Assembly: GCA_020721005.1 (NCBI GenBank)
Contig: DYNP01000007.1
Coordinates: 62,001 to 126,000 of the forward strand
DNA length: 64,000 nucleotides
From: Thiomargarita sp.
GTDB lineage: Bacteria > Pseudomonadota > Gammaproteobacteria > Beggiatoales > Beggiatoaceae
Reading direction: 5' to 3'
The notes under the pieces were generated by a model. It did not search any database and was not told the DNA's origin. It was given only the letters and a program-made list of their open reading frames with translations. Of this stretch, positions 18,265 through 36,419 are shown one piece after another. The stretch's first letter is position 1. The number at the start of each line of letters is the position of its first letter. Position numbers and translations under genes: made by a program.

Positions 18265-21200
18265 TCAAGGTGTTTTGTTCACCACTTCTGCACACCACTT
18301 TACTTCTACTTGTGACGCTTGTGTTTCTGGTGCCGAAAAATCCTCTTTAGCAGGTGATAAAATTCCATAGATACAATATGATCCTACCAAATCTACCAAT
18401 TCCATGTCTATCAAGGTAAGTGGGGTATTGGGACTCTTTTTCCCTGTCCATTTTTTGGCTTGGTTAAAGGGTTGGAACTGATTGGTATCTGTCAAAGTAG
18501 CAAATGATCCGTCTGGAAAAGTTACCATCACATACAGATCATATCCCCAATTTAATTGTTCCGCCAATTGGACAGTTAGGCGTTCTTGCACTTCATAAGT
18601 ATCTTTTTGGGGAATTAACGTTACTTCCATGTTCGTCTCAGAAGGCAAGTCTATACCTCCTGTTACGGTCACAATCACAGGAGAACTGCTGGCACGATTT
18701 TTTTGATTGTCCTCCGCATAAAAAATTAATTCATAATCCCCATTATAAGTTGCTTCTCGCCAAGTTGTTTCCCAAATACCAGCATCCACTGTGGGTAAGA
18801 GAGTTAGAAAAGGTAGATCTAAAATAGGGGTCCCATGCTTATCTAACACCAAGTTGATATGCGGTGGTTTTAAGATTGCCCAAACATGTTGCAAATATCC
18901 TTGAGTTACGTTCACCTGAGCCTTAAGAAGATGTTTTTGACCGGCAGCTAAATTGGTGCTGCCAGAGGAAACCAATTCTTTTATCGACACTGGGTTGGCA
19001 CGAGGAAAATTCCCGTTGACAAATAGGGTCTGCAACCAGTCGTTATTGCCGCTACCGTCACTGAACTTGGGTTCTTGACCCAGTTGTTCGATTGGCTGTT
19101 TAGAGGATTCCGCTATTCTGGGCAGAATTTTTGTTTGTTGCATACTGGCAAATTCAAATGCTTCCTTAAAACTCTTGCCTTCCGACAAGCTATCGGCGAG
19201 GAAACGACTGAAGCCTTGTCGCGCAGGCGGGTAAAAATATGCTTTTCCGGAACCAGTAGTACTGCTGATAATGGCACGATTGGCACTGGGAGAAAGCTCT
19301 TCCATTAAGGAACCAGACCAACAGGCATCTATTACTACTACCATGGATGAAGAGGTAGCAGCGGTATACTCGTCTAAAAAACCTCTAAGTTGGGTAGCTT
19401 CCAATGTTGTCGTATTACTCAACTTAAAGTACAGTTTCTGATTTGAGTCTTCCGCACCATGGTCCACTAAAAAGAAATACAGAGGTTGGTCCAGTTTACC
19501 TCGTCCTTTAGCCCATTCCAAGGCTTGTTGCACGTCGCTGACTTGTAAATTGCCTTCTGGTTGAGGGGCATCCACTGCCCGATCATTGATCCCATCACCA
19601 TTGAAGTCTGCTGAGAGTTTGGGGGAAAGATAATAAATTTCGTCATTCTCAAATCCTCTTTCATACAACATGTGGTAAATGCTATTGATAATGCTTTCGG
19701 TCGTCTCCCAGAGGGTATTGCTATTGTCATTACCACCACCAGCGATGATGATGGCAGCCCGGTTGCCTTTGAGGAGGGCATCACAGGCAGCGTCATCTAG
19801 GTTGGCGTTGTTGCACAGGAAAGCATTTTTACTCAAGGTGAGATAAGCAAGACCAAAGGCAGTTCCTACCCAGATACCTCCTCTACCATCACTTTTCAGT
19901 GCAATCACCTGGTTATCCGGCAGTCCGGAATTTTGGGTATTGAAGATTTCCGTGGTGCCATCTGGATTCAAGTAAACCAAACCACCTTGGTCAAAAGACA
20001 AACTGTTCACGGCCTCCGTGGAACTGCTGTCTGCCGTTATTTGGGACATGTCGATACCTAAAATTCCTGCCCACACGCCATTCCTGTCATCGGCGAGTAA
20101 AGTTTTGATGATACCATTACTGGGTAGTTCCGAATTGCCTTGATTAAATACCTGCCAGGTTCTATCGACTTTCAAATGAGCAATGCCGCTCATCATTGTG
20201 CCCACCCATACACCTCCTTGGTTATCAGATGCCAGGGACATCACAGAATTTTCTGGCAATTGTGAATTACCGATGTTAAAGATCTCCCAAGTTTTATCTG
20301 CCCGTAAATATGCTAATCCCTTGAGGGTGCCTATCCATAAGCCTCCTTGGTTATCGGTTGCCAGAGTAGTAACCCTATTGTCTGGCAATTCCGAACTCTC
20401 CGCATCGAAGAGTTCCCACGTCTGGTGGTCTGCCAACAAATGCGCAATACCGCCACCTTGTTGAGCAGTCTGATCATTTCCAGCTATCCAGACTCCTCCT
20501 GCACCGTCATGAACCACCGTTTGCACTATTGCCAGATTACCCGGCAATTTGGAAGTGTGGGGATTATCAAAGATGCTAAAACCAAAATCGGCTTTGCCGC
20601 TGGGAGGAAAGTGAAGGAGTGCGCCAAAAGTTCCTATCCACATCCCATTTTGACCATCGTTACTGACGGACAAAGCTAATTCGTCATATCGAGTACTCCA
20701 AACACCTTCCGCACTTAAGTGGGCGACGCCACCTTCCCCCAACCTTGCAACGTCTCCTCCAGCTACCCAAAGTCCGCCGTTTTTATCACTGTCGATAGCC
20801 ATGACAATGTTAGACGGGGCATCCTCTTTGACGGACGTTAAAGTATCCCAAGTGCCATCGTTATGTAGATACACTAACCCATTCACAGTACCTATCCAGA
20901 TACCTTCACGATTATCCGCTAAAATGGCCGGGACAGCTGGGTGAGGTAAGGTCGTTTCGGAAGGTGTAAACACTTCCCAAGTGCCATCGGGATGACGATG
21001 CACCAGACCACCGGCTTGGGTGGTGAAATCGTTATTAGTCAACCCGGCCCAAACACCTCCTTGTTTATCTGCAGTGAGTGACCAAACAACATTTCCTGGA
21101 AAAGAGGGAACGTTGCTGGTATTAAACACTTCCCAATTTCCCTGAGCATCGCGATGCACAAGACCTCCGCCACTGTCAACAGGTAAGTTTAGGTTATTCT

Positions 21201-22140
21201 CACCAGTCCCTATCCACAGTCCCCCTTGACCATCCGAAACGAGGCGAACGACACGGTTATCGGGTAACTTGGAATTGGTGGTGTTGAACACTTCCCACTG
21301 TTGATCCGCAAAGAGATGTGCCAGTCCTTGACGAGTGCCTACCCACACTCCTCCTTGACCATCTGGAACGGGGAAATAGGTCCAGGTATCGGGCAATTTG
21401 GAATTGTCGGGAGTCAACAATTCTGCAGGTTTATCAGCATGAAAATGTACTAAACCACTTTCTTGCACTGTTATCCATAAGCCACCTTGACCATCAGCAG
21501 CAAGAGAGTTGATACTTTTACCGGCTGTAAGAGACTGGAGAATTTTATCTTCTTCAATCCATTTTTTGATTTGTCCATCTTGTTGCAAGTACGCTAATCC
21601 GCTTTGAGTACCCAGCCATAGACCACCTTGAGCATCTTCCAGTAAGGTTTGGATAAAGTTGTGGGGCAATCCTTGTTGAGTGGTGTAGACACGGAGGAGT
21701 CGCTGAGTTTTTGCCTCCCGTTGTTCTAGTCCGCCCGACGTGGCTATCCATAGAGTTTCTTTATCCTCCGACAAAAGAAGTCCAGCAATCGTGCGACGGT
21801 TAGTAAACACTTTCCAATTGGCATTTTCAGGCACGAAAGTACCTGCGCGGACCACTATAATTTTGCAGGTGCTACTGTTGCCACTGTCATCGGTGACCAG
21901 GACATAATTTACCCCTGCTTCTGAAGGGGCAGTATAAGTGGCTTGATAGCCCACGGCACTTTGTATTTGACCTTTTGTAGCGCTCCAATTCACGGGACGG
22001 TCAGTACCAGTCATGAAGAGGGTTAGTGGTTTATTCGTCTCGACCACTGCCACAGCAGGAGTGATTTGAAGACCGGTTGCGAATAGATACGGCGTCAAGA
22101 GAAGCAGGCACCATAAACTGTGATGTGTATGATACTTCAT
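18265..22140 (-). CDS. Secreted caspase-like peptidase with 14 propeller repeats
   Basis: The 1291-residue protein has a signal peptide (about 1-23), an Ig-like domain (about 25-97), then about 14 repeats of the two-component regulator propeller type ('GGLWIGT..GL' followed by a 'W.vF' strand) over residues 108-768. That number fits two seven-bladed propellers. A caspase/legumain-like domain follows (about 793-1010) with H894 in 'FLVDHGAE' and C940 in 'VIDACWSG', and an EF-hand-like 'DFNGDGIND'. The C-terminal region matches the paralogue at 15866-17989, including 'GSYCIYGILSP'. Propellers of this class usually sit in sensor kinases of Bacteroidetes-type polysaccharide systems; here they would position a peptidase, perhaps on glycans or surface proteins (inference). 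Confidence 0.88.
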   Translation of the reverse strand: MKYHTHHSLWCLLLLTPYLFATGLQITPAVAVVETNKPLTLFMTGTDRPVNWSATKGQIQSAVGYQATYTAPSEAGVNYVLVTDDSGNSSTCKIIVVRAGTFVPENANWKVFTNRRTIAGLLLSEDKETLWIATSGGLEQREAKTQRLLRVYTTQQGLPHNFIQTLLEDAQGGLWLGTQSGLAYLQQDGQIKKWIEEDKILQSLTAGKSINSLAADGQGGLWITVQESGLVHFHADKPAELLTPDNSKLPDTWTYFPVPDGQGGVWVGTRQGLAHLFADQQWEVFNTTNSKLPDNRVVRLVSDGQGGLWIGTGENNLNLPVDSGGGLVHRDAQGNWEVFNTSNVPSFPGNVVWSLTADKQGGVWAGLTNNDFTTQAGGLVHRHPDGTWEVFTPSETTLPHPAVPAILADNREGIWIGTVNGLVYLHNDGTWDTLTSVKEDAPSNIVMAIDSDKNGGLWVAGGDVARLGEGGVAHLSAEGVWSTRYDELALSVSNDGQNGMWIGTFGALLHFPPSGKADFGFSIFDNPHTSKLPGNLAIVQTVVHDGAGGVWIAGNDQTAQQGGGIAHLLADHQTWELFDAESSELPDNRVTTLATDNQGGLWIGTLKGLAYLRADKTWEIFNIGNSQLPENSVMSLASDNQGGVWVGTMMSGIAHLKVDRTWQVFNQGNSELPSNGIIKTLLADDRNGVWAGILGIDMSQITADSSSTEAVNSLSFDQGGLVYLNPDGTTEIFNTQNSGLPDNQVIALKSDGRGGIWVGTAFGLAYLTLSKNAFLCNNANLDDAACDALLKGNRAAIIIAGGGNDNSNTLWETTESIINSIYHMLYERGFENDEIYYLSPKLSADFNGDGINDRAVDAPQPEGNLQVSDVQQALEWAKGRGKLDQPLYFFLVDHGAEDSNQKLYFKLSNTTTLEATQLRGFLDEYTAATSSSMVVVIDACWSGSLMEELSPSANRAIISSTTGSGKAYFYPPARQGFSRFLADSLSEGKSFKEAFEFASMQQTKILPRIAESSKQPIEQLGQEPKFSDGSGNNDWLQTLFVNGNFPRANPVSIKELVSSGSTNLAAGQKHLLKAQVNVTQGYLQHVWAILKPPHINLVLDKHGTPILDLPFLTLLPTVDAGIWETTWREATYNGDYELIFYAEDNQKNRASSSPVIVTVTGGIDLPSETNMEVTLIPQKDTYEVQERLTVQLAEQLNWGYDLYVMVTFPDGSFATLTDTNQFQPFNQAKKWTGKKSPNTPLTLIDMELVDLVGSYCIYGILSPAKEDFSAPETQASQVEVKWCAEVVNKTP

Positions 22141-22281: not shown

Positions 22282-25176
22282 TTACTCTGTTTGCCAGAAT
22301 ACTTCTTTTGTACCATCTGCCTTTATATATAACACTTGTACTGCAGGTTTTCCTGCCCCAAATTCCCCATAACTGTCACAAAACAGAGTTCTAACATCCG
22401 CAATTTGGTTTGAAGATTTTGTGGAAAAGGCACTATAACCTCCGCCTTCATGGTCAATCCAACCGCCTGTCACTGCGCCATATAATGTGTTACCCTTAAT
22501 AAACGTTCCTAATTGACCACGTGGAGAGAGAAGTTCTCCAGTTATCACAACCGCATAAAAACCAGGCTGTAACAACGGAGTAACATAGTTTTTTTCTGGA
22601 ACTGCTGAAGGTTGTTTGAAAATGGTTAACCAGTTGTTTCCAACCTGTCGTATTACCTTTAGATCAAGAGAAGGGTGGTTTTTTAAAAAATCGGATACAG
22701 TTACTTCTACGGCTTCAGTTTCACCAACGGAAAAGCCAATCCAACTGGGAGACAATCCATTTTCGCGCAGTGCCACTCCTGCATAGAATCCACCTGGATA
22801 GGGAATAGCTGTGCCGCGGCTACGGAAGGGTGAGATGGACATGGTATCTACTAACAGACTCCAGACTCCTGGTGGTTGATTGGTTGGCAAAGCAGCTTCG
22901 ACAATGTAGAAGCCTGTGTGCTCTAATGGAATGGTATAATGTTCTTCTTTAGTTTCCCCACATTCGACCCTATCTGCCACATACGTTCCACCGGTTTCCA
23001 TCATGATTTTGCGTTTGATAGCCGTCGCATACTGGTCAAAATTCTGGATGAGGGAGACAAAGCCGCAATTGGTTTGACCGGTGGTGGTGCAAATGGGTTG
23101 GGGTCTGACCATCGCGGTCAATTGGGCCTGGTCCACACCGGTACCCACACCTAACGCATTGATGGCATCGACTCCTTTTGCTATCGCATTAGATGCCGCT
23201 GTTGAAGCATTACTCTGTCCGTCTGTAGAAACATCAATAATTTGTTTTTCGGAAGTGAATTTAAATTGGTCAGTGCAGAAAGTAATGGCGCCACCAATAT
23301 CTGTTCCTGTGCTAATAGGAAACTGTTGGATCCCACGAACTTGAGCTGCCACTGCATCAGCAGTAGCTTGACTGTCTATCAGGGTAGGAGGCACTTCCAG
23401 TTGTGGGGTACCTGAAAATTGCACCACCGAAATCGTGACAGTACCATCTTTGGGGAAGACTGCCGGGTCTTGAATAGCATTGGCTAAACCATCCAACTGT
23501 TTTTGGAAGTTAAGCGGATCACCTCCAGAAAGAGGATCAGTGATGCTACTGGAACCGTCTATAGCGGTGCAAAGTTCGATGGTTTTGGCAGTGATTACGG
23601 GTTGGGCTGGGGGAATTTCTCCAGTTCCTATGCCAGTTACTGAAATTTCCTCCAAAATGGGACTTATTCCGTCTTGTGCGGGTCTCAAAATCACTTCTAA
23701 CTGCAAAAAACGCCCTGACAAAGGGGGATTAATTTCTATACCATTAGATGTTTCCACAAAAGGTTGTTTCCCAAGTCCTGCTTGAGTATCCTCTGATCTG
23801 GAACGAACGGTTATTTTCCCACCATTATCCTGGCTTATCCAACTTATCGTCTTCCAGGCTGTTCCCAGTTGATTGCTGTCATACACAACCATCCAACGAC
23901 CTTGTGGATCGGTATTGCCTAAAGCGATGGTGCCAGTCATATCGCTGTAGTTGTAGGGACCCGCACCCGCACCCAAGTCCACTACCAAATCCACGGTGTT
24001 GGTGGCGGGGTCAATTCGCATGGCGTTGTCGGAATCCAAGTTAGTTATCCAGACTTTACCACGGGCATCTATCGCAACACCAGTGGGTTGCCACCCCTTA
24101 TCCTTGTTCGGTCCCCATCCCTCATCTTGATTCAAATTGATTACTGCCAATTCGTTGCCATCATTATCAAGTCGGGTGATCTGGTTATAACCAGAGTTGG
24201 CTATCCAAACGTGATTATCTGCCGGGTTGACAGCCAGTCCTCTACACGTAAGTTGTTTGCCCTGAAGGAGTTCCTTACCATCATTGGCCACTTTGACAAC
24301 TACGTTTGGACTGTACCGACAATTCCAAATGTTACCCTGTGTGTCTATAGCCAGACCGTAAGAGTCAGGGGATGGAAGACATTGCGCCTGCTTGGTAGCC
24401 GGGTCATAACGTAACAGTTGGCCGGTACTACGGCCAGAAGACCAGAGGACACCGTTTTTATCTACCAATCCACCATAGCCACCACAAGACATGGGAATGG
24501 TCTCAACAACCGTACCGGTGTCGCCCGCTATCAAAGCAAATTGAGGTGTACCATTAATCCCCGCTACCCACACATTATTGTCTGGAGTGATAGATACCGA
24601 CCGTGTGCCACCATTCCCGGCGCGAACATAATGCAAGATGCACTCGTCTTCCGCAGTCGTTATACCACCTTGATTATCCACTCCATCCTTATTGGTCCAT
24701 GGCTTCACATCTCCCAAACCAGTGGAAGTGTCAATTTGACCATTACCGTTACGGTCAACACATTGGAAATTTTCCGCCAGACCAATATGAGTCACGGAAC
24801 CAGTATTGTTTTCCGCTTCGTTACGATTACCCACCCATACGTTCCCATTCTGGTCAACCGTGGTCCGGGAAGGATTACGACCACGCCAATCGGGAGCTGT
24901 ATAATATTCGCCCAAAATTTTGCCAGTCTCCGTATCCACTTTGACCACCGTTCCCTTGTTAGATAGGGCAATCCAAATGTAAGGAAACGTGGTCAAATTG
25001 GCATTTAGTTGCAGTTGGTTAGCAACTACACTGTAATTGAGATTGACGGCTGTACCTTCGTTAAAATCAGCATCAAAAGTATAGACCTTGCTGATGACAT
25101 TCGTGGTTTGTGCCGCCACGCTGGTAATCGCACAGGATAAAACTGCGGCAATTATAGATTTCAGTCCTATGTTCAT
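22282..25176 (-). CDS. Secreted NHL/Vgb-like propeller plus von Willebrand A domain protein
   Basis: The 964-residue protein has a signal peptide (about 1-22, 'TSVAAQ'), then NHL/streptogramin-lyase-like propeller repeats (about 65-400, repeated 'GNVWV..', 'NHVWIANSG', 'GKVWITN'). A calcium-loop-like segment 'DRNGNGQID' sits within it. A small beta domain (about 425-520) precedes a von Willebrand factor A domain related to DUF1194 (about 530-740) with an intact MIDAS start 'DGSSS' (540-544). The C-terminal ~220 residues are beta-rich and unassigned. The ATG has 'AGGAGA' upstream. The vWA region is closely related to that of the next gene (25275-27650), including 'VSTDGQ' and the 'GFVSLIQNF' block. 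A ligand- or matrix-binding surface role is inferred. Confidence 0.84.
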   Translation of the reverse strand: MNIGLKSIIAAVLSCAITSVAAQTTNVISKVYTFDADFNEGTAVNLNYSVVANQLQLNANLTTFPYIWIALSNKGTVVKVDTETGKILGEYYTAPDWRGRNPSRTTVDQNGNVWVGNRNEAENNTGSVTHIGLAENFQCVDRNGNGQIDTSTGLGDVKPWTNKDGVDNQGGITTAEDECILHYVRAGNGGTRSVSITPDNNVWVAGINGTPQFALIAGDTGTVVETIPMSCGGYGGLVDKNGVLWSSGRSTGQLLRYDPATKQAQCLPSPDSYGLAIDTQGNIWNCRYSPNVVVKVANDGKELLQGKQLTCRGLAVNPADNHVWIANSGYNQITRLDNDGNELAVINLNQDEGWGPNKDKGWQPTGVAIDARGKVWITNLDSDNAMRIDPATNTVDLVVDLGAGAGPYNYSDMTGTIALGNTDPQGRWMVVYDSNQLGTAWKTISWISQDNGGKITVRSRSEDTQAGLGKQPFVETSNGIEINPPLSGRFLQLEVILRPAQDGISPILEEISVTGIGTGEIPPAQPVITAKTIELCTAIDGSSSITDPLSGGDPLNFQKQLDGLANAIQDPAVFPKDGTVTISVVQFSGTPQLEVPPTLIDSQATADAVAAQVRGIQQFPISTGTDIGGAITFCTDQFKFTSEKQIIDVSTDGQSNASTAASNAIAKGVDAINALGVGTGVDQAQLTAMVRPQPICTTTGQTNCGFVSLIQNFDQYATAIKRKIMMETGGTYVADRVECGETKEEHYTIPLEHTGFYIVEAALPTNQPPGVWSLLVDTMSISPFRSRGTAIPYPGGFYAGVALRENGLSPSWIGFSVGETEAVEVTVSDFLKNHPSLDLKVIRQVGNNWLTIFKQPSAVPEKNYVTPLLQPGFYAVVITGELLSPRGQLGTFIKGNTLYGAVTGGWIDHEGGGYSAFSTKSSNQIADVRTLFCDSYGEFGAGKPAVQVLYIKADGTKEVFWQTE

Positions 25177-25274: not shown

Positions 25275-27650
25275 TTATTTGATCACTACCACAGTTACGG
25301 GTTGTTCGCTGTGCACTAACATGCCATCTTCTTGCAGCCGATAACCAAAAGTAATTTTGAAAATCCCTGAAAAAAATACACCTTGGTATAAGACCACTGG
25401 TTGAGTAAATGACAGCTCCACGCCATTTTCTAAAGGGACTAAAGTGGCTGGTGTCTGATCCCAAGGCAAAAGATTTCTTTTCGAGTCAAACATTAAATAC
25501 GTTGGTTGATCATCCTCTGAATCCTGATAAGTGGCATAAACTACAATATCCGCTAATTTTCCAACTTGGAGCGGATCTACAGTGATCCGACCATGAATGT
25601 CTATGGAATCAGTTAATTGTTTAACAGTTGCTTCGGTTTGAAATTCTCCTTTATCAATAGATATACCTCCTGATAAAGAGGTTGCAGTAACTGCCATCTC
25701 TCCCGTAGCAGAGATTGCCACTGCACCTAGTGCAGGCAGTTCGGTCGGCATTTGTCCTGACGAATCGACAGTCACCCCTTCTTCTAATTTAACTTTGTCG
25801 CCTAAAATCACACAAGACAAATGACTGCCTTGCTTAACTGTCAAACTTTCTAGACGTGCTGGTGCCTTACAGTCACCTTGAATATTTCCTGCCAAAAGAC
25901 CGCCATAAATACTGGTGTTAGCCGCCAACTGCACATCCTGAAAATAGCCACCAACCCTGCTGATGTTAACAATTGTGCCTCCTAAAATTCCTCCCTTAAT
26001 AGAACGGCCACGAAACACAAAATCCGCCATATAACCCTCATTGCCGATATAACCTGTGACAGTGCCCCCGGTAACTTGAGCCCCCGGCTTGATGGTTAAA
26101 TTAGACACCCAGCCCTCGTTTTGAAGAATACCCTCCACTACTGCATTAGAAAGATTACCTACATTAATCCATTTGTCAGTCGTATTGGCTTGTACATTGA
26201 GATTAATCACAGTGGCACCGCCAGCGTTACAAACCCAATCCATCCAATCTCCGCTAGGTGGACAATCAAAACTCATCATTGGGGTTGTTCCCGTAATTTC
26301 CGCAATCATTTTAGCTTTGATGGCTTGTTGATAATTTTTAAAATTGTTTACCAATAAGAGGAAGCCACATTCGGTGCAAGGAAGTTGCGGTCTAATAATT
26401 TCTTCCAAATTGGTTTTATCGATCCCACTTCCTACCCCAATAGCGTGAATGGCATCCACCCCATTGGCCATGAGGGTTTCTAAAAATTCCTCTGACACTG
26501 CAGCTTGCCCATCTGTAGAGATATCAATAACTTGTTTATCAGCCTTGAAAGTAAATTGTTTGGCACACAATTCAATGCCTGCCTGAATACTGGTACCACC
26601 CTCAAACTTTTTGAAAGCCCGAATCTGATTGGCTACCGTCTGAGCCGTGGTTTGGCTATCGATGACAACAGGAGAAATTCCATATCCTTCATCAATGGTT
26701 GCATTAGAGGAAAATTGCACTACAGACAAGGTTATACTTCTATTTGGAGGAATTACGCCAAGATCCTCAATGGCATTTGCCAAACCATTGAGTTGGAGTT
26801 GAAAATCAGTCGTACTAATGCTACCGGAAGCATCGATGGCAGTACAAAGCTCCACAGTTTTGGATTCCGAATATACTTCAAAAGTAGAAGGGAGGGGAGG
26901 AGTAATTGGCATTGAAGAAGTGATCGGATTAAAACTTTCTCGATATTCCCAACTTAAAATGTCATGATTGCTAAAGGCACCTCCTGTTCCAGAGGTAAAG
27001 CCTACGAAAGCTTGAGTGACTCCACCCAAAATGGCAGGAATGTCCAATTTTTGGCTAAGAGTTGCTTCTGAAGGTCGCACTCCAGTTTGATTGGCACGAA
27101 CCTCCAAAGTAGCACCATCATAATCTATCCAAGAAAACCAAATGTTGCCATCATCCAGTTTAGGTATCGTATTTACAACTCCACCTTCATGATTAACATG
27201 TCCATTTAGATTGATGGCAATATGGCTGGCGCTGATTTCACCATTATCCCAAGTGTCAAACTCTACACCAACACTACTTTCTATCCCTCCATAACCAATT
27301 TGACCCCCAGCACTGCCGAGGTCGGAACTGATAGGTTGTATCACGAATACAATACCATCTGCTCCCCCATCTCCCATACCCCCTGATTCTGTGATGCGAA
27401 ATTTCAAGAAAGAGCTGAAATTAGCTGCATTCAAAGGCACTTGACTAAAAACACTGCCTGCCTGGCTACCGTTGGCAGGAGTCAATCGTAAAACGACACC
27501 GTCAGTAGTCGTTACAGTGGCAGCTGACCCGTTTAACTTTAGGGAAGAAGTATCAGTAAAATTGTTAAAATCCATCAAGGCTAGACAAGGGTTAGCCAAT
27601 GAACAACTCAAAAATATAGCATTTGCGATAAATATCAGTTTTGTATTCAT
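25275..27650 (-). CDS. Secreted lectin-like plus von Willebrand A domain protein
   Basis: The 791-residue protein has a signal peptide (about 1-24). A legume-lectin-like beta-sandwich follows (about 25-240), recognised by 'DGIVFVIQ', 'VGVEFDTWDNGE' and the downstream 'SHIAINLNG'. A DUF1194-type vWA domain (about 265-460) has MIDAS residues 'DASGS' (273-277). After this come short glycine-rich repeats resembling beta-helix rungs (about 490-640). The C-terminal module contains 'VVYATYQD' and 'LPWDQTP', resembling the N-terminal part of the neighbouring C11 peptidase and the C-terminus of the caspase-like proteins. It lies in a same-strand series with the NHL-vWA gene downstream. A carbohydrate-binding, metal-dependent adhesive protein is the most likely role; the ligand is unknown. 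Confidence 0.82.
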   Translation of the reverse strand: MNTKLIFIANAIFLSCSLANPCLALMDFNNFTDTSSLKLNGSAATVTTTDGVVLRLTPANGSQAGSVFSQVPLNAANFSSFLKFRITESGGMGDGGADGIVFVIQPISSDLGSAGGQIGYGGIESSVGVEFDTWDNGEISASHIAINLNGHVNHEGGVVNTIPKLDDGNIWFSWIDYDGATLEVRANQTGVRPSEATLSQKLDIPAILGGVTQAFVGFTSGTGGAFSNHDILSWEYRESFNPITSSMPITPPLPSTFEVYSESKTVELCTAIDASGSISTTDFQLQLNGLANAIEDLGVIPPNRSITLSVVQFSSNATIDEGYGISPVVIDSQTTAQTVANQIRAFKKFEGGTSIQAGIELCAKQFTFKADKQVIDISTDGQAAVSEEFLETLMANGVDAIHAIGVGSGIDKTNLEEIIRPQLPCTECGFLLLVNNFKNYQQAIKAKMIAEITGTTPMMSFDCPPSGDWMDWVCNAGGATVINLNVQANTTDKWINVGNLSNAVVEGILQNEGWVSNLTIKPGAQVTGGTVTGYIGNEGYMADFVFRGRSIKGGILGGTIVNISRVGGYFQDVQLAANTSIYGGLLAGNIQGDCKAPARLESLTVKQGSHLSCVILGDKVKLEEGVTVDSSGQMPTELPALGAVAISATGEMAVTATSLSGGISIDKGEFQTEATVKQLTDSIDIHGRITVDPLQVGKLADIVVYATYQDSEDDQPTYLMFDSKRNLLPWDQTPATLVPLENGVELSFTQPVVLYQGVFFSGIFKITFGYRLQEDGMLVHSEQPVTVVVIK

Positions 27651-27790: not shown

Positions 27791-30121
27791 TTAATTACTC
27801 AAATAAACTCCCGATTTGACATTGAGTTTCCGGCATCCTTCATCTCCGCCAGGCGCCGGGTCAAAGTCTTTTTCTTGGCAGAAACAATTTGACAACCCTT
27901 TGTTGTTACACAGTGTATCAAATTGGCGCTGTCCGTTAAGTCCATAATAAGCCACTGCTACCGCGGATTGAGCATCATCGCAATGACGCTTAAGAATGAC
28001 AGTATCGGTATTGACAACAACCAAAGGGTTACCTTGACGGACTTCTAATTGTTGGTCTTGTAAATGTAAAGTGTTGGGAATTACAGTATCTTCTGGATAA
28101 AGAGTATCATCGCGCCCCCAAATCTCATCTGTTTGTGGTGTCATTTGGCAAACTGCCCATTGCCTATCAGTTTCCCAACTCGCCTCATCACCACAGAAGG
28201 AAAGAACGGCAGGAGATTGATTAACTTGAACTTCGGCTAACAATTGGTAACGTTGCGCAGCCATGGGTTGTTTTTTCACAGTAAGATTTTCACACTGTGA
28301 CTCATTGATACAAAGTTGATATTGACAAGCTTCTTTGCCTTCGGCACCAATATTATGGTCCTCTGGATAGTGAGGATATTGAAGTAATGTTTTTACCAAA
28401 TACAGACTCATTTCGGCACTGTCTTTAGCTTGTTGACCATAGTAACCTTCCAGTCCGATAAGTTCGCTGGCAGTAAGGTTAAGCCAATGGGCATCACCAC
28501 AAATAATACCATTCATACAAGTATCCCCATGATCGGACGGTTTAAAATCATCACTTTTGCGTTTTTGACTATAATAGTCTAAAGCCCCTTTAAGTGTCGT
28601 ATAGGCCTGAGGGAGAACTGCAAGATAGGATTTATCTTTGCCAATATCTAAACTAATTCGTCCTGCTTGAGCGTCAATACCCTTCACATTGTCATTGGTC
28701 TCATAGTCAACCACCAATGTTTGAAGTTGTGTGAGGAGACTGTCGGCATGCGTTTTTAATTCAGGAAAATCAGGCAACACCGTTTGCAAAATGTTGTAGA
28801 GATCGACACGTACATTGCGTTTTTGATCCAGGGAACGCAAGAATCGACCTGTGTCTTTAAATGGGTAGCCAGGGGCACGAATAATGCCATGACTTAGCAT
28901 TTCATAACTGAGAAAGGGACTGTTGGTGAAGATTTGGTTAAGTGCCGTGGCAAATTCAGTCAGAGTGTCGGTAACTGTTGGGAGTTTAGTAAGGTCAAGA
29001 ACACTATAGGTAATTTGAGAATTTGCAAACGTTCCCAAGTCTTTAGAGTGTTGAATGTAACCCGTTTTGACAATTTGGCCAAAGGCAACGCCGCTGTCAG
29101 GAGGAGTTTGTTGCAAGGTTTGGAGGAGGTGAGCATAATCAATTCCATGGCCAGGCTCTAATTCAGCGGATGCACTCATAGCATTAGCCAGGGTAGCAGT
29201 CACTTCGGCCACTTCGATGCTGGCCATCAGACAAGCATCGTATACTACGATATCTAAAGGTTGTGCCAATTGTGAGCGAATGGTTTGATAGGCTTGTTGA
29301 AGATCGGTAAGATGGAGGAGACTGTTTTGGCCTGCTGTCGAGGTGTCAAGACCATAACCGTTGACACCGTCGCCATGATTCCAAAGAATCAAAGCATAGT
29401 GTTGAGCAGGAAAGTGAGTCGTAGCCCAGAGCACAAAATCGCTGAGCATGTGCGGCGCAGCTAGACTTTGACTGCCCAAATCTTGGAGGACATGAAATTG
29501 ACCAGTTTGAACCATAGATCGTTTAACAGTGTTCCAACCTTCACGTCTCGAACCACCGGTGGTGAGAACAAGGTTGACCGCGTCATTGGCCACTGACTGA
29601 GTGCCATTTAACATTTCCATCAGATCTTGACTGGCCCAGTGTTGGGGAACAGATTCCAGATTGGAACCGACAATATAAACCATGACAGTCCAAAGACGTG
29701 GAGGTTGTGGTAACGTTGGAAAACTGCCGTCAAAGACACGAGTGTATCTGGTATTGGTGGCAATATCGACGAAATCACTCCCGATGCCCACATAAACGGG
29801 TATGTTCTGTAGGAGAGTTTTAGAGAGAGGTGGAAAACAGGTAGTTTTCAGTCCCAGTTGTTTTTTGATAAAAAAGGAAGGCTCCTGGATGCCATCCCAA
29901 GGAGCAGGTTGATTTTCTGCGTTGATGAAATAAAGTTGATTGCCAATTAGGGCCGCCAGATAGACCTGCCAATCGAGGTTGGAATAGTCTGGGGTAAAGC
30001 AAAATTCAAGTTCATTCTCTGTTGGACGAAGATCTATAGCCAGTTGGTCGTAAAGAGAGTAGCCATTGATCGGAAGTAAGAAACTGAGTAAAACCGAATA
30101 AATTGAGAATTTTATGTTCAT
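27791..30121 (-). CDS. Secreted clostripain-family (C11) cysteine peptidase
   Basis: The 776-residue protein has a signal peptide (about 1-22). A beta-rich module follows (about 25-130, with 'QVYLAALIGNQLYF' and 'PWDGIQEP'), then the Peptidase C11 domain (about 143-540). The catalytic dyad is clear: H249 in 'ILWNHGDG' and C297 in 'VYDACLMASIEVA'. C11 peptidases cleave after basic residues and are usually activated by autocleavage and calcium; these are family properties. A cysteine-rich C-terminal region (about 545-776) may be a binding module. This is the only C11 gene among the caspase-like (also CD-clan) peptidases in the cluster, so the locus encodes two distinct families of the same clan. 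Confidence 0.88.
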   Translation of the reverse strand: MNIKFSIYSVLLSFLLPINGYSLYDQLAIDLRPTENELEFCFTPDYSNLDWQVYLAALIGNQLYFINAENQPAPWDGIQEPSFFIKKQLGLKTTCFPPLSKTLLQNIPVYVGIGSDFVDIATNTRYTRVFDGSFPTLPQPPRLWTVMVYIVGSNLESVPQHWASQDLMEMLNGTQSVANDAVNLVLTTGGSRREGWNTVKRSMVQTGQFHVLQDLGSQSLAAPHMLSDFVLWATTHFPAQHYALILWNHGDGVNGYGLDTSTAGQNSLLHLTDLQQAYQTIRSQLAQPLDIVVYDACLMASIEVAEVTATLANAMSASAELEPGHGIDYAHLLQTLQQTPPDSGVAFGQIVKTGYIQHSKDLGTFANSQITYSVLDLTKLPTVTDTLTEFATALNQIFTNSPFLSYEMLSHGIIRAPGYPFKDTGRFLRSLDQKRNVRVDLYNILQTVLPDFPELKTHADSLLTQLQTLVVDYETNDNVKGIDAQAGRISLDIGKDKSYLAVLPQAYTTLKGALDYYSQKRKSDDFKPSDHGDTCMNGIICGDAHWLNLTASELIGLEGYYGQQAKDSAEMSLYLVKTLLQYPHYPEDHNIGAEGKEACQYQLCINESQCENLTVKKQPMAAQRYQLLAEVQVNQSPAVLSFCGDEASWETDRQWAVCQMTPQTDEIWGRDDTLYPEDTVIPNTLHLQDQQLEVRQGNPLVVVNTDTVILKRHCDDAQSAVAVAYYGLNGQRQFDTLCNNKGLSNCFCQEKDFDPAPGGDEGCRKLNVKSGVYLSN

Positions 30122-30213: not shown

Positions 30214-30984
30214 CTACCGGATATAGGGATAAACACTCACATAAGTTCTATTCCAACCACAAGACCAAACTGAAGAGGAAGTTTTGCCCCATTTCCCGTT
30301 GTTGACCGCCTCTATATAAACATCTCCACATACGCCGTTAATATTAACATCAAAGTTACCATAAGCATCCGCTGTTGCTGCTCCTACATAAGCCCAGTAA
30401 CCGTCCCAAACCCAGAAATGGACAGCGGCATAGCTGGAATTTCTCCAGCAGTTCCACGAACATCCATAAAGATATTCTTGGACGTTGCCATAAACACGCA
30501 GATAGCCAAACGCACGATCATCGCTGGCACTGGCTTCAGCGGTCAGTTTTTCTGAATCCAAAGTGGCAGACAATTCGTTATTGCCATAAAGGAGTCCGAA
30601 TTTATGTTGGCCTGGGAGTTGGTCGTTGGGAATTTTGACGGTGAGATTGAAACCATCGTCTCTGGATACGATTTCGATCGTGCCATCGGTTTCAAATTGC
30701 TTCATGGCGTCGCTGATATCAGTGCCATCAAAAGTGAATCCTTTGACCTCTTCGAGTTTGAGACCATCAACCTTGATGATGATGAAGTTCTCATCAGAGA
30801 GGTAATAGCTAATCTTGGGGGGGCCACTGTATTTGGCATCCGTTTGGTCTGTGGGAACTCCCTCTATTGGAGTACTGGCATTCGGATCCAAGTCCGAAGG
30901 GACATCCTGTGCCCAAAGAGTCGAATGGAATTGAGTTAACAAAAGGCCTAATGTTGCCGTTGCTAGAAATTTAGATAAGCGCAT
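30214..30984 (-). CDS. Small secreted protein of unknown function
   Basis: The 256-residue product starts with a signal peptide ('MRLSKFLATATLGLLL', cleavage near 'LWAQD'), followed by an acidic segment, a beta-rich middle and a C-terminal domain rich in tryptophan, tyrosine and four cysteines ('YGCSWNCW', 'GVCGD', 'SVWSCGW'), likely disulfide-bonded. I recognise no family. The ATG has 'AGAGGA' 10 bases upstream. About 90 bases of the start region, including the signal-peptide coding sequence, are repeated just upstream in a diverged copy. Its position inside the secreted peptidase cluster suggests a surface or periplasmic partner. Confidence 0.75.
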   Translation of the reverse strand: MRLSKFLATATLGLLLTQFHSTLWAQDVPSDLDPNASTPIEGVPTDQTDAKYSGPPKISYYLSDENFIIIKVDGLKLEEVKGFTFDGTDISDAMKQFETDGTIEIVSRDDGFNLTVKIPNDQLPGQHKFGLLYGNNELSATLDSEKLTAEASASDDRAFGYLRVYGNVQEYLYGCSWNCWRNSSYAAVHFWVWDGYWAYVGAATADAYGNFDVNINGVCGDVYIEAVNNGKWGKTSSSVWSCGWNRTYVSVYPYIR

Positions 30985-31210: not shown

Positions 31211-32914
31211 TTATTGTACCACTTTGAAACATTTTTCATGGGTCACCCATCGTTTTTGATTCGTCAATACATTTTCTTGAGTTGGTGACAAGATTCCCAA
31301 TAGACAATATTGACCTGGTGTCAATCCCACTGGCAGTATCAAATCTAATACCGTCATCGAGTCACCTAATCGCCTATCCACCTCCCATTTGGAAGGTTGG
31401 TTTAGAGGAGCAAATTGATTTAATTGGGTCAATGCAACAAATTGAGGTGAAGGGTCGTCGGAGGGCAAAATAATGGCCACATACAAATCCATTTCCCAAC
31501 TTAACTGTTCTAACACCTCGGCTTTAAATAACTCACCGATTTGATAAACATCCTTCTCCGAAGCTACTTGAATATTCGCCTGGAAAGGAACCTCACTTCC
31601 TATCACTTGTAGTTTCAGGGGATGATTACTGCCAGTTTGTCCCTGCTGATCTATCGCATATAAAGTAACTTCATACTCACTGGGATAAACGATCTCACCC
31701 CAAAGTCCCTCCCACAAATTGGCTTCTGATGTTAATGACAAATTTATCCTTTGCGAAAGACGTGAAGGCCCTGTCTTGTCCAACAACATCTTTAACTCCG
31801 CCCACACTTGTTGCATTTCCCCACTCTAAGCGATGACTTTAGCACGTAAAGACAGTGATGTTCCCAAAATTATTCTGGGTGTTAAGAACACTTTGGATAA
31901 CCACTGACCATCTTGGTTGCTAGAAACACCGTCTCCATTGTCGTCCAACTGCGGCTGTTGTGACTGATAGTTTTTAGAATTGAGTTGAAAAGCTTCCCCA
32001 AATGAACTGCTTTGTAAACCTTTACTACCTGACACCAGAAACTCACTGAAACCTTTAAGTATGGCACCATTTTTATCATCACGACTGAACTGTGCCTCTA
32101 ATTCTGCCGCAGTACTACTGATAATCCCCCGTTGCGCCGCCGCCAGAGATTTCAACAAGGAGCCACTGTAGGAGGCATCCATCACCAATACCACCGAATT
32201 ACCCGTCATATTTTGATAATCATCCAGCCACAGTTTCAAGGTACTGGCATCCAACTTCTGGTTGGAATTTAACACCCACTTGTCCTTTTCTCCATGTCCT
32301 GCGATGAAGAAAATATATAATGGTTGTTCCAATTTCCCCAACGTGTTCGCCCAAGCCAGAGCCTCCTGAATATCTGTCGTGACCAAAGGACGCTCTGGGT
32401 CAGGTGCATCAACGATCACATCTCTTTGCCCATCCTCATTGAAATCCATCCAAACGGTGGGTGACAGATAATAAATTTCAGCATCGCTAAAACCTTTGGC
32501 ATATAGACCTCCATAAACATGTTGCGCAATTACTAGAGTTGTCGCCCAATTTGAATTGGCCTCCTCATTTCCACCCCCCAAAATGAGAATAGCAGCGCGA
32601 GAAAAAGTTAAATTAGTTAGAGTAATAGCTGGTACTACCTGAATGTTCAATATACCCAGATTTCCTTCAGCATCCGATACCATAACCACATCAGTACCTT
32701 CTTGAGCAGGTGCAAAATAAATCACTTGTGAACCACTGTCTTGAATTTGGCCATGCGTTGGCGTCCAAACAACCTCACCATAAGTTCCAGAAACTGTTAA
32801 GGTAAGTTGCTCATCTACAGCAACAACAGGTGTGGCAGGTGTAAACATAATCTCCGTGGCCTGAACCATTGATAAGTAACCAATAAACCACAAATTAAAT
32901 AAGTGAAATCGCAT
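31211..32914 (-). pseudogene. Broken caspase-like paralogue (Cys to Ser, in-frame amber stop)
   Basis: The frame from the ATG at 32914 encodes a signal peptide (about 1-19), an Ig-like domain (about 22-95) and a caspase-like domain without propeller repeats. H207 is kept ('FIAGHGEKD'), but the nucleophile position reads serine (S248, codon TCC, in 'VMDASYSG'). The frame then meets a TAG at 31826-31828. The same frame continues beyond it ('..GEMQQVWAELK') with the conserved C-terminal modules and '.TPGQYCLLGILSP', and stops at 31211. Aligned to the two intact paralogues, the stop replaces a single residue with no frameshift. The calcium-loop motif is altered ('DFNEDGQRD'). The gene is therefore doubly damaged, or makes a truncated 362-residue pseudo-peptidase. 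Confidence 0.8.
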
Positions 32915-33274
32915 TATTATTACCCCTTAATCAACTCATTGGTGAGTGAGCAAATTCCAGCTTTCCTGAAGTCTACGTAGGTCGAAATGTGGTATATTTC
33001 CATGAATACTGACAAATTAAACTTGAGAAACTGCAACCTGGCAAGAGTAACAATAAAAAAATTATGTTAAAAAAATTCTTAACCCACACACTTTTTCTTA
33101 ACTGGTTTTACGATCAATCATTTACTGCCACTTCCTATCTCACCTCATTTAAGATAAAATACCAGACTGAATGCCAGTTCATTGACCCTTTACCCAATAA
33201 ATTACCGTAAATTATGTAGGATTATTTTATATAACCACCCTCTTTACTCACCTAAAAAAGTAGATCTCATCGCC
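32915..33274. other. Divergent intergenic region
   Basis: This AT-rich gap separates the broken caspase-like gene (leftward) from the SARP-NACHT gene (rightward) and must hold the promoters of both. I found no convincing -35/-10 pair or long palindrome. A TTG at 33182 opens the NACHT frame earlier but lacks a Shine-Dalgarno sequence. Confidence 0.4.
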
Positions 33275-36200
33275 ATGTTGACCTTAAAAACCTTTGGGGT
33301 TGCTCAACTTTTCATTTCCAACCAAAAACACCCATTTAAAACTGCTTGGCCCTTCACCATAGCAGCATATACCCTTATTGAGCATAATGGACATGCCACT
33401 TATCAACAACTCAAAGACCGCTTTTATCCCAATCAACCTCTCTGTCCGGAAAATTTTAGTCCACTTGCGTGCAGTTTTTATCGAACGCTGTGGAAGGAAA
33501 TTCTCACCGGACCTGAATCTCCAGATTCGCCGCATCCACACTGTCCACCCGTTTCTAATACTCTAAATGCTGATTATTCCCAAAATTCATGGAAAGAAGC
33601 ACTTCAGCAACTGCAACGCTATCAGCTGATCGATTCCTTTGAAATCACAACCACTGCTTATTCCTATATTCCCTCCAAAGAATTCTGTGCCTATTTACAA
33701 AAACTGGGGCTGGGACATGGCACTCAAAAAACCTTAAATGTTAACCTCAGTAATATCAAGAAGAAAGTTGGACAAGAGCATTGTCTGATCGAACAAAGTA
33801 GTGTTAAATTCACCCAATTTGAGATCGACATCGTCGCTTTAGAACAAGCCTTACAAAACTGCAATTTCAACGAAATCAAACGCATTTATACAGGTCCCTT
33901 CCTATCTGATCTTGAAAAAGAAATACGCAAAGGAGTGTGGATGCCGCCCCTGTTGCTCGACTGGATTTGGAATAAACGGCAATATTTTGCTCAGCAAATA
34001 TCAGACAGTCTCGATATTTTATTGAAGGATTTCCCAGAGCAAAGCACTGAATTAACTCAAGAAATTCAAATGTTTCGTGAACAACATAAACTGTTCTCAA
34101 ATCAACATGTGCAACAACGCTCAACCCCCAACCCTCCAACCCCAACCCCTTCCCAACCAGTGTCCACATTACCCCCGTATTCAGCAACGTTCCCTCATTC
34201 AATTCCCTCAGACAACACCTCAGATTGCCCACAATTACGCATTCATTTATTTCGTAAAATGACTGAAGAATGTGAAATTCGTTTAGACAATATTAGGCAG
34301 CACTGGATTAACCTGCGTGTTTCGGCCAAAAAAACGCGTCTGGACAAACAAACCTCGTTTCTCTTTCAAACTGATCAACTGCTGGATTTTTTAGAAGACT
34401 GTGGCGGATTTGCCGTATTATTGGGGGAGGGGGGAATAGGAAAAAGCATTGCTTTATATGACCTTGCACAACGATTACTTGAACGTGCTAAAACCTCCTG
34501 TACTTTTCCAATTCCACTCATATTCAATTTAGCCAACTGGACAAAAAACCAGTCCCTGCCTGTTTTTTTACAAGAAGAATTGTTGTTAAGATTTGGTTTG
34601 TCTGAAGAAGGGATTGAACAAGAATTTGCCTTATTACTCAAAAACAAAGCCTATATTTTCTTATTGGACGGTTTTGACAATATACCTATTGAATATCGTC
34701 TCGAGGCCTTTTCTAAAATTCAACAATTTATTCAAAAAAAAGGAGAAGTCAATTTGGGAGGCATTTTACTCGCCAGTCGACCGGTTGAGTACTGTCATAC
34801 CAGAGACCTATTTTTGGCTGAAGACACTCAAACTTTCCGATTTTATGGTGAAGTTGCTTTAACAGAATTGGATCAAGAGCATGTGGAAAACTATCTCAAA
34901 AAATATCCAAATTTATCAGTTCAAAAACTGGAACTTCTTTTCCATTCAACGTCCAGCCATCGACTGTTGAACACACCCTTGAGACTGACACTGTTTCTTG
35001 AAAATTTTGACCCCTCTTCCCTTACCGAACATATTGATCACAAAGTAATAGAACAACAACTGATATCCAGCCATGTTAACAAATTACTTGACCGAGCTGA
35101 ACAAGATCATCAGGCACAAAAATCCCCTTACACTCGTGCTCAAGTCAAAACATGGTTACAACAAATTGCTTGCTCAGTTAAAATAGGGGAAACATTTCGC
35201 ACCGAAGCCTTATCCCCTACTATTTTGAACACTCACCTACAACGCCTTTATACAAGATGGTTTGCCTTATTCTTCGGCATGATTTTTGGGTCGATTCATG
35301 GAGCTGCCGGGGGACTTATTTTTGGTAAGCGCATGTCCCAAGAATTTCACCAGGGCTTACCTGCACAATATTACAACAATTCCACACTCAATTTTCTAAA
35401 TGAGACCTTACGCCAATGGATGCAAAGTGATATGGGACTGGAAAAATTATATTTGGTCATCACCTATTCTGCATTTGGTCTACTGTGTGGCACCCTGGCC
35501 AGTATTCTAACGCTTATCCTGTTCAAAAAAATTTTCATCTCTTCTTTCTTATTCATACACTTAACACTGTTTCTCGGTTTGACTGGATTAATTGCAGAAG
35601 GCATGAGTTGGGGTCTGTATATGACATTACTCTATGGTTCTCTTGGTGCATTTTTGGGACAATTTACACAACGTTATGGACACCCTGATCCATTGCAAAT
35701 TGACCTAAGCCAAAACGTTTCCTTGAACTATTCCCTACTTTACAAAAAAATGAAAACATCCTTACCTATTTTCTTAATCATGGCAATTATTGGCGTCCTA
35801 ATTTCACTGCCCTTTACTTTTTCCTCAAAACTCACTGTTTTCGAATTGACAACTCACGGATTATTCATTGGACTCTGCATCACACTGACCCACCTTTTTG
35901 CCACCATCAAAAGGGAAGGAGATTGGTCAAACCGGCTCTTTTTAACACGCCAAAAAATAGGAGCATTGCTCATAACCAATCTTTTAAATTTCCTCATCAT
36001 ATCTTTACTAATAACAACAATCGTTACTTTTTTCGCACACCTTATATTCCGGTTAGACTGGACAGGCAGTTTCAGTCTGGGAATACGTATTGGTGTACCA
36101 ATCGGGCTGATCATCGGTTTTATCGTATGCAAGGGCACGGAAATTCTCAAACACCTGACCCTACGCTGGATAATGTACCAACAAAATCTAGCCCCTTGGC

Positions 36201-36283
36201 GTTACTCTACCTTTTTAAGATACATGACCCAAGTAAACCTCCTGCGATTGGAAGTAGGGGGGGGGGTATGCGTTTCATCATGA
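33275..36283 (+). CDS. SARP/BTAD-NACHT STAND protein with polytopic membrane C-terminus
   Basis: The 1002-residue product combines three parts. The N-terminal ~250 residues resemble a SARP regulator: a winged-helix-like start ('LTLKTFGVAQLF') and a BTAD-type helical region containing 'EIDIVALEQAL' and 'IYTGPFLSDLE'. After a proline-rich linker (about 280-315) comes a NACHT-type NTPase with Walker A 'GEGGIGKS' (384-391) and Walker B 'FLLDGFD' (462-468). From about residue 665 to 960 there are several hydrophobic helices, then a short basic tail. The start is taken at the ATG of 'MLTLKTFG', though without a Shine-Dalgarno sequence. SARP domains usually bind DNA and NACHT modules act as ligand-triggered switches; a membrane-tethered version is unusual. 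It is divergent from the secreted peptidase cluster. Confidence 0.82.
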   Translation: MLTLKTFGVAQLFISNQKHPFKTAWPFTIAAYTLIEHNGHATYQQLKDRFYPNQPLCPENFSPLACSFYRTLWKEILTGPESPDSPHPHCPPVSNTLNADYSQNSWKEALQQLQRYQLIDSFEITTTAYSYIPSKEFCAYLQKLGLGHGTQKTLNVNLSNIKKKVGQEHCLIEQSSVKFTQFEIDIVALEQALQNCNFNEIKRIYTGPFLSDLEKEIRKGVWMPPLLLDWIWNKRQYFAQQISDSLDILLKDFPEQSTELTQEIQMFREQHKLFSNQHVQQRSTPNPPTPTPSQPVSTLPPYSATFPHSIPSDNTSDCPQLRIHLFRKMTEECEIRLDNIRQHWINLRVSAKKTRLDKQTSFLFQTDQLLDFLEDCGGFAVLLGEGGIGKSIALYDLAQRLLERAKTSCTFPIPLIFNLANWTKNQSLPVFLQEELLLRFGLSEEGIEQEFALLLKNKAYIFLLDGFDNIPIEYRLEAFSKIQQFIQKKGEVNLGGILLASRPVEYCHTRDLFLAEDTQTFRFYGEVALTELDQEHVENYLKKYPNLSVQKLELLFHSTSSHRLLNTPLRLTLFLENFDPSSLTEHIDHKVIEQQLISSHVNKLLDRAEQDHQAQKSPYTRAQVKTWLQQIACSVKIGETFRTEALSPTILNTHLQRLYTRWFALFFGMIFGSIHGAAGGLIFGKRMSQEFHQGLPAQYYNNSTLNFLNETLRQWMQSDMGLEKLYLVITYSAFGLLCGTLASILTLILFKKIFISSFLFIHLTLFLGLTGLIAEGMSWGLYMTLLYGSLGAFLGQFTQRYGHPDPLQIDLSQNVSLNYSLLYKKMKTSLPIFLIMAIIGVLISLPFTFSSKLTVFELTTHGLFIGLCITLTHLFATIKREGDWSNRLFLTRQKIGALLITNLLNFLIISLLITTIVTFFAHLIFRLDWTGSFSLGIRIGVPIGLIIGFIVCKGTEILKHLTLRWIMYQQNLAPWRYSTFLRYMTQVNLLRLEVGGGVCVSS

Positions 36284-36419
36284 CACCTTTCAGGAACATA
36301 TTCGAAAATTTGAATTAAAATCAACCAATTCAAATAAACCTCTTGCAAAAGTAAATGATGCAATAAAGATGAGATAGGAAAAAATAAAAGGAAAATCCCC
36401 GTTAGAGTGGAGGCTCTAG

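Follow-up and report, generated by a model that had tools for sequence, protein, structure and literature searches.

A SARP-NACHT protein with predicted membrane helices inside its winged-helix domain, a putative regulator of secreted proteins in Thiomargarita

Results

The window, that is, the whole stretch of 64,000 nucleotides analyzed here (contig DYNP01000007.1, positions 62,001 to 126,000), belongs to a 4.05-Mb draft genome of Thiomargarita sp. (GCA_020721005.1). A forward-strand gene, whose product combines a SARP head, a NACHT domain and a polytopic membrane region, diverges in it from a cluster of genes for exported proteins (Table 1). The first gene of this cluster is a single gene cut by the in-frame stop codon, and both of its paralogues are intact.

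Table 1. Features of the regulator gene and of the divergent cluster, in window coordinates
Feature	Position	Strand	Remarks
Exported C13-type peptidase	15866..17989	-	Paralogue of 18265-22140 and 31211-32914
Exported propeller and C13-type peptidase	18265..22140	-	
Exported beta-propeller and VWA protein	22282..25176	-	C-terminal part homologous to a cluster protein of G021
Exported L-type lectin and VWA protein	25275..27650	-	
Exported clostripain-type (C11) peptidase	27791..30121	-	
Exported protein, no Pfam family	30214..30984	-	
First divergent gene: signal peptide, C13-type peptidase	31211..32914	-	Interrupted by in-frame TAG 31826-31828
Intergenic region between the divergent genes	32915..33274	.	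Neither the CCAAGA dyad nor a SARP-like direct repeat detected
SARP-NACHT-membrane gene	33275..36283	+	ATG at 33275; 1,002 amino acids; starts of homologues coincide
SARP winged helix, first part	33278..33424	+	Strands 2-5, 11-14, 40-42; helices 24-36, 43-50; model, match to EmbR/AfsR
Winged-helix-like insert, ~90 residues (58-147)	33446..33715	+	Model; separates helix 2 of the SARP winged helix from helix 3
SARP recognition helix and wing (residues 150-184)	33722..33826	+	Model, fold match
BTAD helices (residues 185-275)	33827..34099	+	hhalign to SARP profile; fold match
NACHT domain (residues 381-544)	34415..34906	+	Pfam PF05729, E=1.1e-7
HD1 and first part of WHD (residues 546-652)	34910..35230	+	Alignment with NLRC4, NLRP3, NOD2, Apaf-1
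Predicted block of eight membrane helices within the WHD (residues 662-952)	35258..36130	+	Hydrophobicity, model alignment
WHD, second part	36131..36280	+	Last five codons out of the homologues' frame
G10 tract	36257..36266	+	With nine G, the frame would match that of the homologues
Conserved tail in the other frame (YAFHHDTFQEHIRKFE...)	36267..36377	+	Equivalent of NLRC4 KYKFFHKSFQEYT

Full-length homologues, one in each genome, occur in six further members of the bacterial family, among them G027 (Candidatus Marithrix sp. Canyon 246, Thiotrichaceae), with E values down to 1e-161 and 30 to 37% identity; two of these genes are split by frameshifts. Their presence argues against a chance architecture. 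A seventh genome holds a C-terminal fragment only. When genomes sampled across the class and phylum were examined, the one SARP-NACHT-membrane protein found beyond the family was L068, from another family of the class, in which a canonical SARP head sits on the same NACHT-membrane chassis. A scan of the genome contigs gave no match with the window protein, and with the G027 protein it returned that protein itself only. No paper on SARP-NACHT fusions was found in the literature searched.

The N-terminal part matched none of the Pfam SARP/BTAD or Trans_reg_C families, NCBIfam and PADLOC likewise did not recognize it, and phmmer against the PDB returned nothing. Since no sequence family recognized this region, we built an AlphaFold2 model of residues 1 to 329 from the seven homologues (pLDDT 75.6, pTM 0.73). 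Compared with solved structures, it matched, over residues 1 to 259, both SARPs that the list contained, EmbR (Z 13.3, 2.6 Å over 151 residues) and AfsR (Z 13.2 and 13.0); OmpR-type winged helices came next at Z 6.5. Plain Foldseek also ranked AfsR at the top, but with an E value of 0.16, so the SARP assignment rests on the aligner that gave the Z scores, on the hhalign match of the BTAD part and on the order of the elements. Against a home-made SARP profile, hhalign aligned the BTAD part only (P-value 5.6e-5, probability only 66%), the winged helix staying unaligned because of an insert of about 90 residues. As judged by fold match, the N-terminus displays an OmpR-type winged helix followed by BTAD helices, the arrangement that defines the SARP family. 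The sequence-only reading had called this region a SARP and had agreed in advance to give the idea up if prediction revealed no winged helix in the first 250 residues; the model contains one, and the assignment holds.

The insert is found in all seven homologues and is missing from the canonical SARP head of L068. Its fold (residues 52 to 148) resembles winged helices to a moderate degree, SarA scoring Z 5.8 and several others Z 5 to 6. The loop that joins helix 2 to helix 3 in the winged helix of OmpR-type proteins contacts RNA polymerase; by this analogy, the insert, which lies at the same place, may be functional. Behind the SARP head, a proline-rich linker (residues 279 to 317, pLDDT under 50), whose length differs among the homologues, leads to the NACHT domain.

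The NACHT domain, also claimed at the outset, is recognized by Pfam and retains intact Walker A (GEGGIGKS, residues 384 to 391) and Walker B (IFLLDGFD, residues 461 to 468) motifs. In the full-length model (pLDDT 73.8, pTM 0.54), residues 317 to 1002 align with residues 93 to 444 of NLRC4 (324 residues, Z 21.4, rmsd 5.2), and NLRP3 (Z 19.8), NOD2 (Z 19.3), Apaf-1 (Z 13.4) and, similarly, NLRP9 align as well. The alignment with NLRC4 reveals an NBD-HD1-WHD arrangement, the last part of the WHD being out of frame in the window allele. Since the range shared with NLRs ends inside the WHD and the residues that follow the membrane segments fill that very place, the model puts the eight helices within the WHD. 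The polytopic region proposed from sequence therefore stands, whereas its placement at the C-terminus does not. The true C-terminus is an NLR-type F-x-H-x-x-F-Q-E motif: in an HMMER profile devoid of the membrane block, the tail GGYxFxHDWFQEYF, with which all intact homologues finish, aligns with NLRC4 KYKFFHKSFQEYT, a piece that is not significant when taken alone. Its histidine presumably corresponds to the one with which the WHD of NLRs keeps ADP bound. Repeats are usual, although not obligatory, at the C-terminus of STAND proteins; no superstructure-forming repeats were found at this one, which has a membrane block instead and ends in the WHD tail. The loops carry a net charge (K+R minus D+E) of +13 on the cytoplasmic side and 0 on the other, and the positive-inside rule accordingly predicts an N-in, C-in topology. 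The protein would then combine a membrane segment with a cytoplasmic head of putative DNA-binding capacity, the hallmark of membrane-tethered regulators.

At all seven SARP-NACHT-membrane loci, an upstream gene on the opposite strand encodes a signal-peptide protein, which is the immediate neighbor in 5/7. In G026 a PIN-like gene lies between the two, and in G021 two small, near-identical coiled-coil genes do so, directly upstream of the regulator and on its strand (L026:12088-13587, minus strand). Across the loci, the divergent proteins include C13- and C11-type peptidases and lectin, VWA, LamG and PKD proteins, only partly homologous to each other. NACHT-membrane proteins without a SARP head (L060 to L067), from the same family, show such a divergent gene at one of eight loci (Fisher p=0.0012, or p=0.035 when only immediate neighbors are counted), with signal peptides called by a simple heuristic rule and by eye. 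With its predicted domains and membrane helices, and with secreted-protein genes always divergent from it in the relatives, the protein has the look of a regulator that controls transcription from the membrane.

The DNA between the divergent genes supplies a candidate operator. An inverted repeat, CCAAGA-N4-15-TCTTGG, occurs there in four of the seven loci: G027 (L025), G021 (L026), G026 (L024, with two copies, one near each gene) and G030 (L028). The dyad was first noticed in three loci, and the G030 copy was found blind in a genome scan, which yielded 2 to 11 copies per genome; in those four genomes, nearly all the other copies fall inside coding sequence and almost none are intergenic. A motif-free search over all dyads ranked CCAAGA first at 4/7, while in 300 shuffles no GC-containing dyad exceeded 2/7. 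G023 has a degenerate copy. The dyad is absent from G009 and from the intergenic region of the window, whose best degenerate match lies within the range of the shuffles. The sites described for SARPs to date consist of heptamers repeated directly, not inverted (PMC10972967), and no SARP-type direct repeat rose above shuffles in nine intergenic stretches. A sigma-70 promoter scan of 32800-33400 also returned nothing. The dyad may be a binding site of the regulator, an autoregulatory site or the element of another factor. Upstream of the Marithrix regulator (L025:11991-12299), we also observed a 13-bp inverted repeat, ATCTTGGAAACTT / AAGTTTCCAAGAT, with its arms about 50 bp apart. In G003, which belongs to the genus of G027 but has no copy of the regulator, CCAAGATAAATCTTGG palindromes are paired 39 bp apart at several places and are probably an unrelated repeat.

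These neighbors and the repeat also bear on another reading, namely, that the protein is an NLR-like sensor of defense or cell death of the bNACHT type, whose SARP-like head no longer binds DNA and instead acts as an adaptor between proteins. In these same genomes, NACHT-membrane relatives bear heads that do not bind DNA (trypsin-like, two-helix membrane and other short ones), the wing of the window protein lacks basic character, and NACHT proteins are reportedly common among antiphage proteins (PMC12169576). Still, PADLOC does not match the window protein, and NCBIfam EruA matches its P-loop only, far below the cut-off. The neighbors are secreted proteins rather than defense genes at 7/7 loci, no defense genes were noted beside the window gene, and an intergenic inverted repeat is conserved at homologous loci. 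A defense role thus appears unlikely.

The window allele shifts frame just before the WHD histidine. Its tail is out of frame because the tract has ten G; with nine, the homologous frame would continue as YAFHHDTFQEHIRKFE. This is the longest G run in the window. Three of the seven homologues, the one in the window included, are frameshifted; the break lies near a T6 run in G030 and comes from a tandem duplication of 11 bp in G023. The gene may therefore be dispensable. The tenth G may reflect an error of sequencing, decay of the allele or variation in tract length. Most of the other coding G9-G10 tracts sampled in the genome run through open frames, hence there is no general pattern of phase variation; tracts of G8 and longer are about threefold more frequent than a simple base-composition expectation (127 versus 43 octamers).

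Together with the amber codon in the first divergent gene and the broken homologues of G030 and G023, the frameshift could mean that the locus is decaying and that the system no longer works in this genome. Yet the remaining 1,000 codons of the regulator are open, the out-of-frame tail retains its conserved motif, and the other genes of the cluster are open too; moreover, in a draft assembly, an indel within a homopolymer may stem from faulty sequencing or from phase variation of the tract. We consider decay improbable. Since the window has no dyad and its allele is frameshifted, control of the cluster in this particular strain is only putative.

Discussion

Our analysis characterizes a protein that the sequence-only reading had described as a membrane-tethered SARP-NACHT activator, a description supported in part: the domains and the divergent secreted gene are as proposed, while the tether is not C-terminal. 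The domain content, the nesting within the WHD, the divergent gene order and the intergenic repeat of the relatives are computed results. On their basis, we propose, with a probability of about 0.55, that the product is a membrane-embedded STAND transcription regulator and a putative activator of the neighboring secreted cluster; by analogy with known systems, local control of this cluster is its most likely function.

As to how such a protein may work, we infer that it binds DNA, probably at the inverted repeat where one is present, that it activates rather than represses, and that it is switched by nucleotides in response to a signal. The cytoplasmic SARP head would bind DNA and contact RNA polymerase, while the NBD-HD1-WHD module would act as an NLR-type ADP/ATP switch. 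The eight helices inserted in the WHD, replacing the usual C-terminal repeats, would tie the moving part of this switch to the membrane. A signal from the envelope or the membrane could then turn the WHD, allowing ADP to be exchanged for ATP, and the ATP-bound proteins would cluster, bringing their SARP heads to the promoter that lies between the divergent genes. In this way, expression of the secreted-protein cluster would be turned on, perhaps along with that of the regulator. More tentatively, we speculate that the polytopic domain lets the state of the membrane itself turn the nucleotide switch and that the G tract toggles between an autoinhibited and an altered form.

The activator reading is favored by the SARP fold, the NACHT domain, the alignment with NLRC4, the membrane helices, the divergent gene and the dyad, as well as by the chassis of L068 and the precedent of XssQ discussed below. 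It is weakened by the absence of the dyad from the window and G009, by known SARP sites being direct repeats, none of which was found here, by secreted neighbors that are partly nonhomologous and heuristically called, and by the frameshifts in 3/7 homologues. Furthermore, an activator fixed in the membrane must reach its DNA, which would restrict it to local targets. Release of a soluble SARP part into the cytoplasm, by proteolysis or as an alternative product, would bypass this constraint and could exploit the proline-rich, low-confidence linker, but it is a decidedly unlikely scenario, given that we identified neither a protease gene nor a cleavage motif, that the linker varies in length between homologues and that a membrane block nested in the WHD suggests direct conformational coupling.

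The membrane-embedded activator proposed here shares features with several known systems. The usual picture of an NLR-type switch is that of a soluble sensor ending in a repeat domain. Like the animal NLRs NLRC4, NLRP3 and NOD2, the window protein has the NBD-HD1-WHD module and the F-x-H-xx-FQE motif of the WHD, but it is bacterial and has a putative DNA-binding head and a membrane block inside the WHD instead of LRRs. ToxR and CadC are membrane proteins with a cytoplasmic winged-helix DNA-binding head, reminiscent of the organization predicted here, although these one-component regulators have one membrane helix, a periplasmic sensor and no ATPase switch. XssQ, a STAND protein of Synechocystis with an N-terminal HTH, activates a neighboring extracellular-polysaccharide cluster (PMC8205485); compared by its description, it differs in acting in a two-component cascade and in having no membrane region or SARP head described.

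The protein also resembles the large SARPs (AfsR and the SARP-NB-ARC-TPR proteins of Streptomyces), which are cluster situated and also carry an N-terminal SARP winged helix and BTAD in front of a STAND switch. The window protein is gammaproteobacterial, has NACHT rather than NB-ARC and no TPR repeats, and bears eight helices predicted inside its WHD and an extra winged-helix-like insert in its SARP head; the membrane block stands where large SARPs have their TPR domain (PMC10972967). The SARP-STAND kind is thus already known, and the nested membrane block and the SARP insert are a new variation of it. If our proposal is correct, a membrane block in the switch domain, combined with a DNA-binding activator at the N-terminus, would link the state of the membrane directly to transcription, offering a testable regulator, operator and target set for the control of surface proteins in large sulfur bacteria. 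It would also explain what the common NACHT-membrane proteins without a SARP head may sense. These proteins (L060 to L067) share the NACHT chassis, with membrane helices before a GGGYxFIHR tail, and differ in having no conserved divergent secreted gene and in their N-terminal heads, which appear to be interchangeable and include a trypsin-like one, two membrane helices and others. The trypsin-like head belongs to L063, which also has Sel1-like repeats behind its tail.
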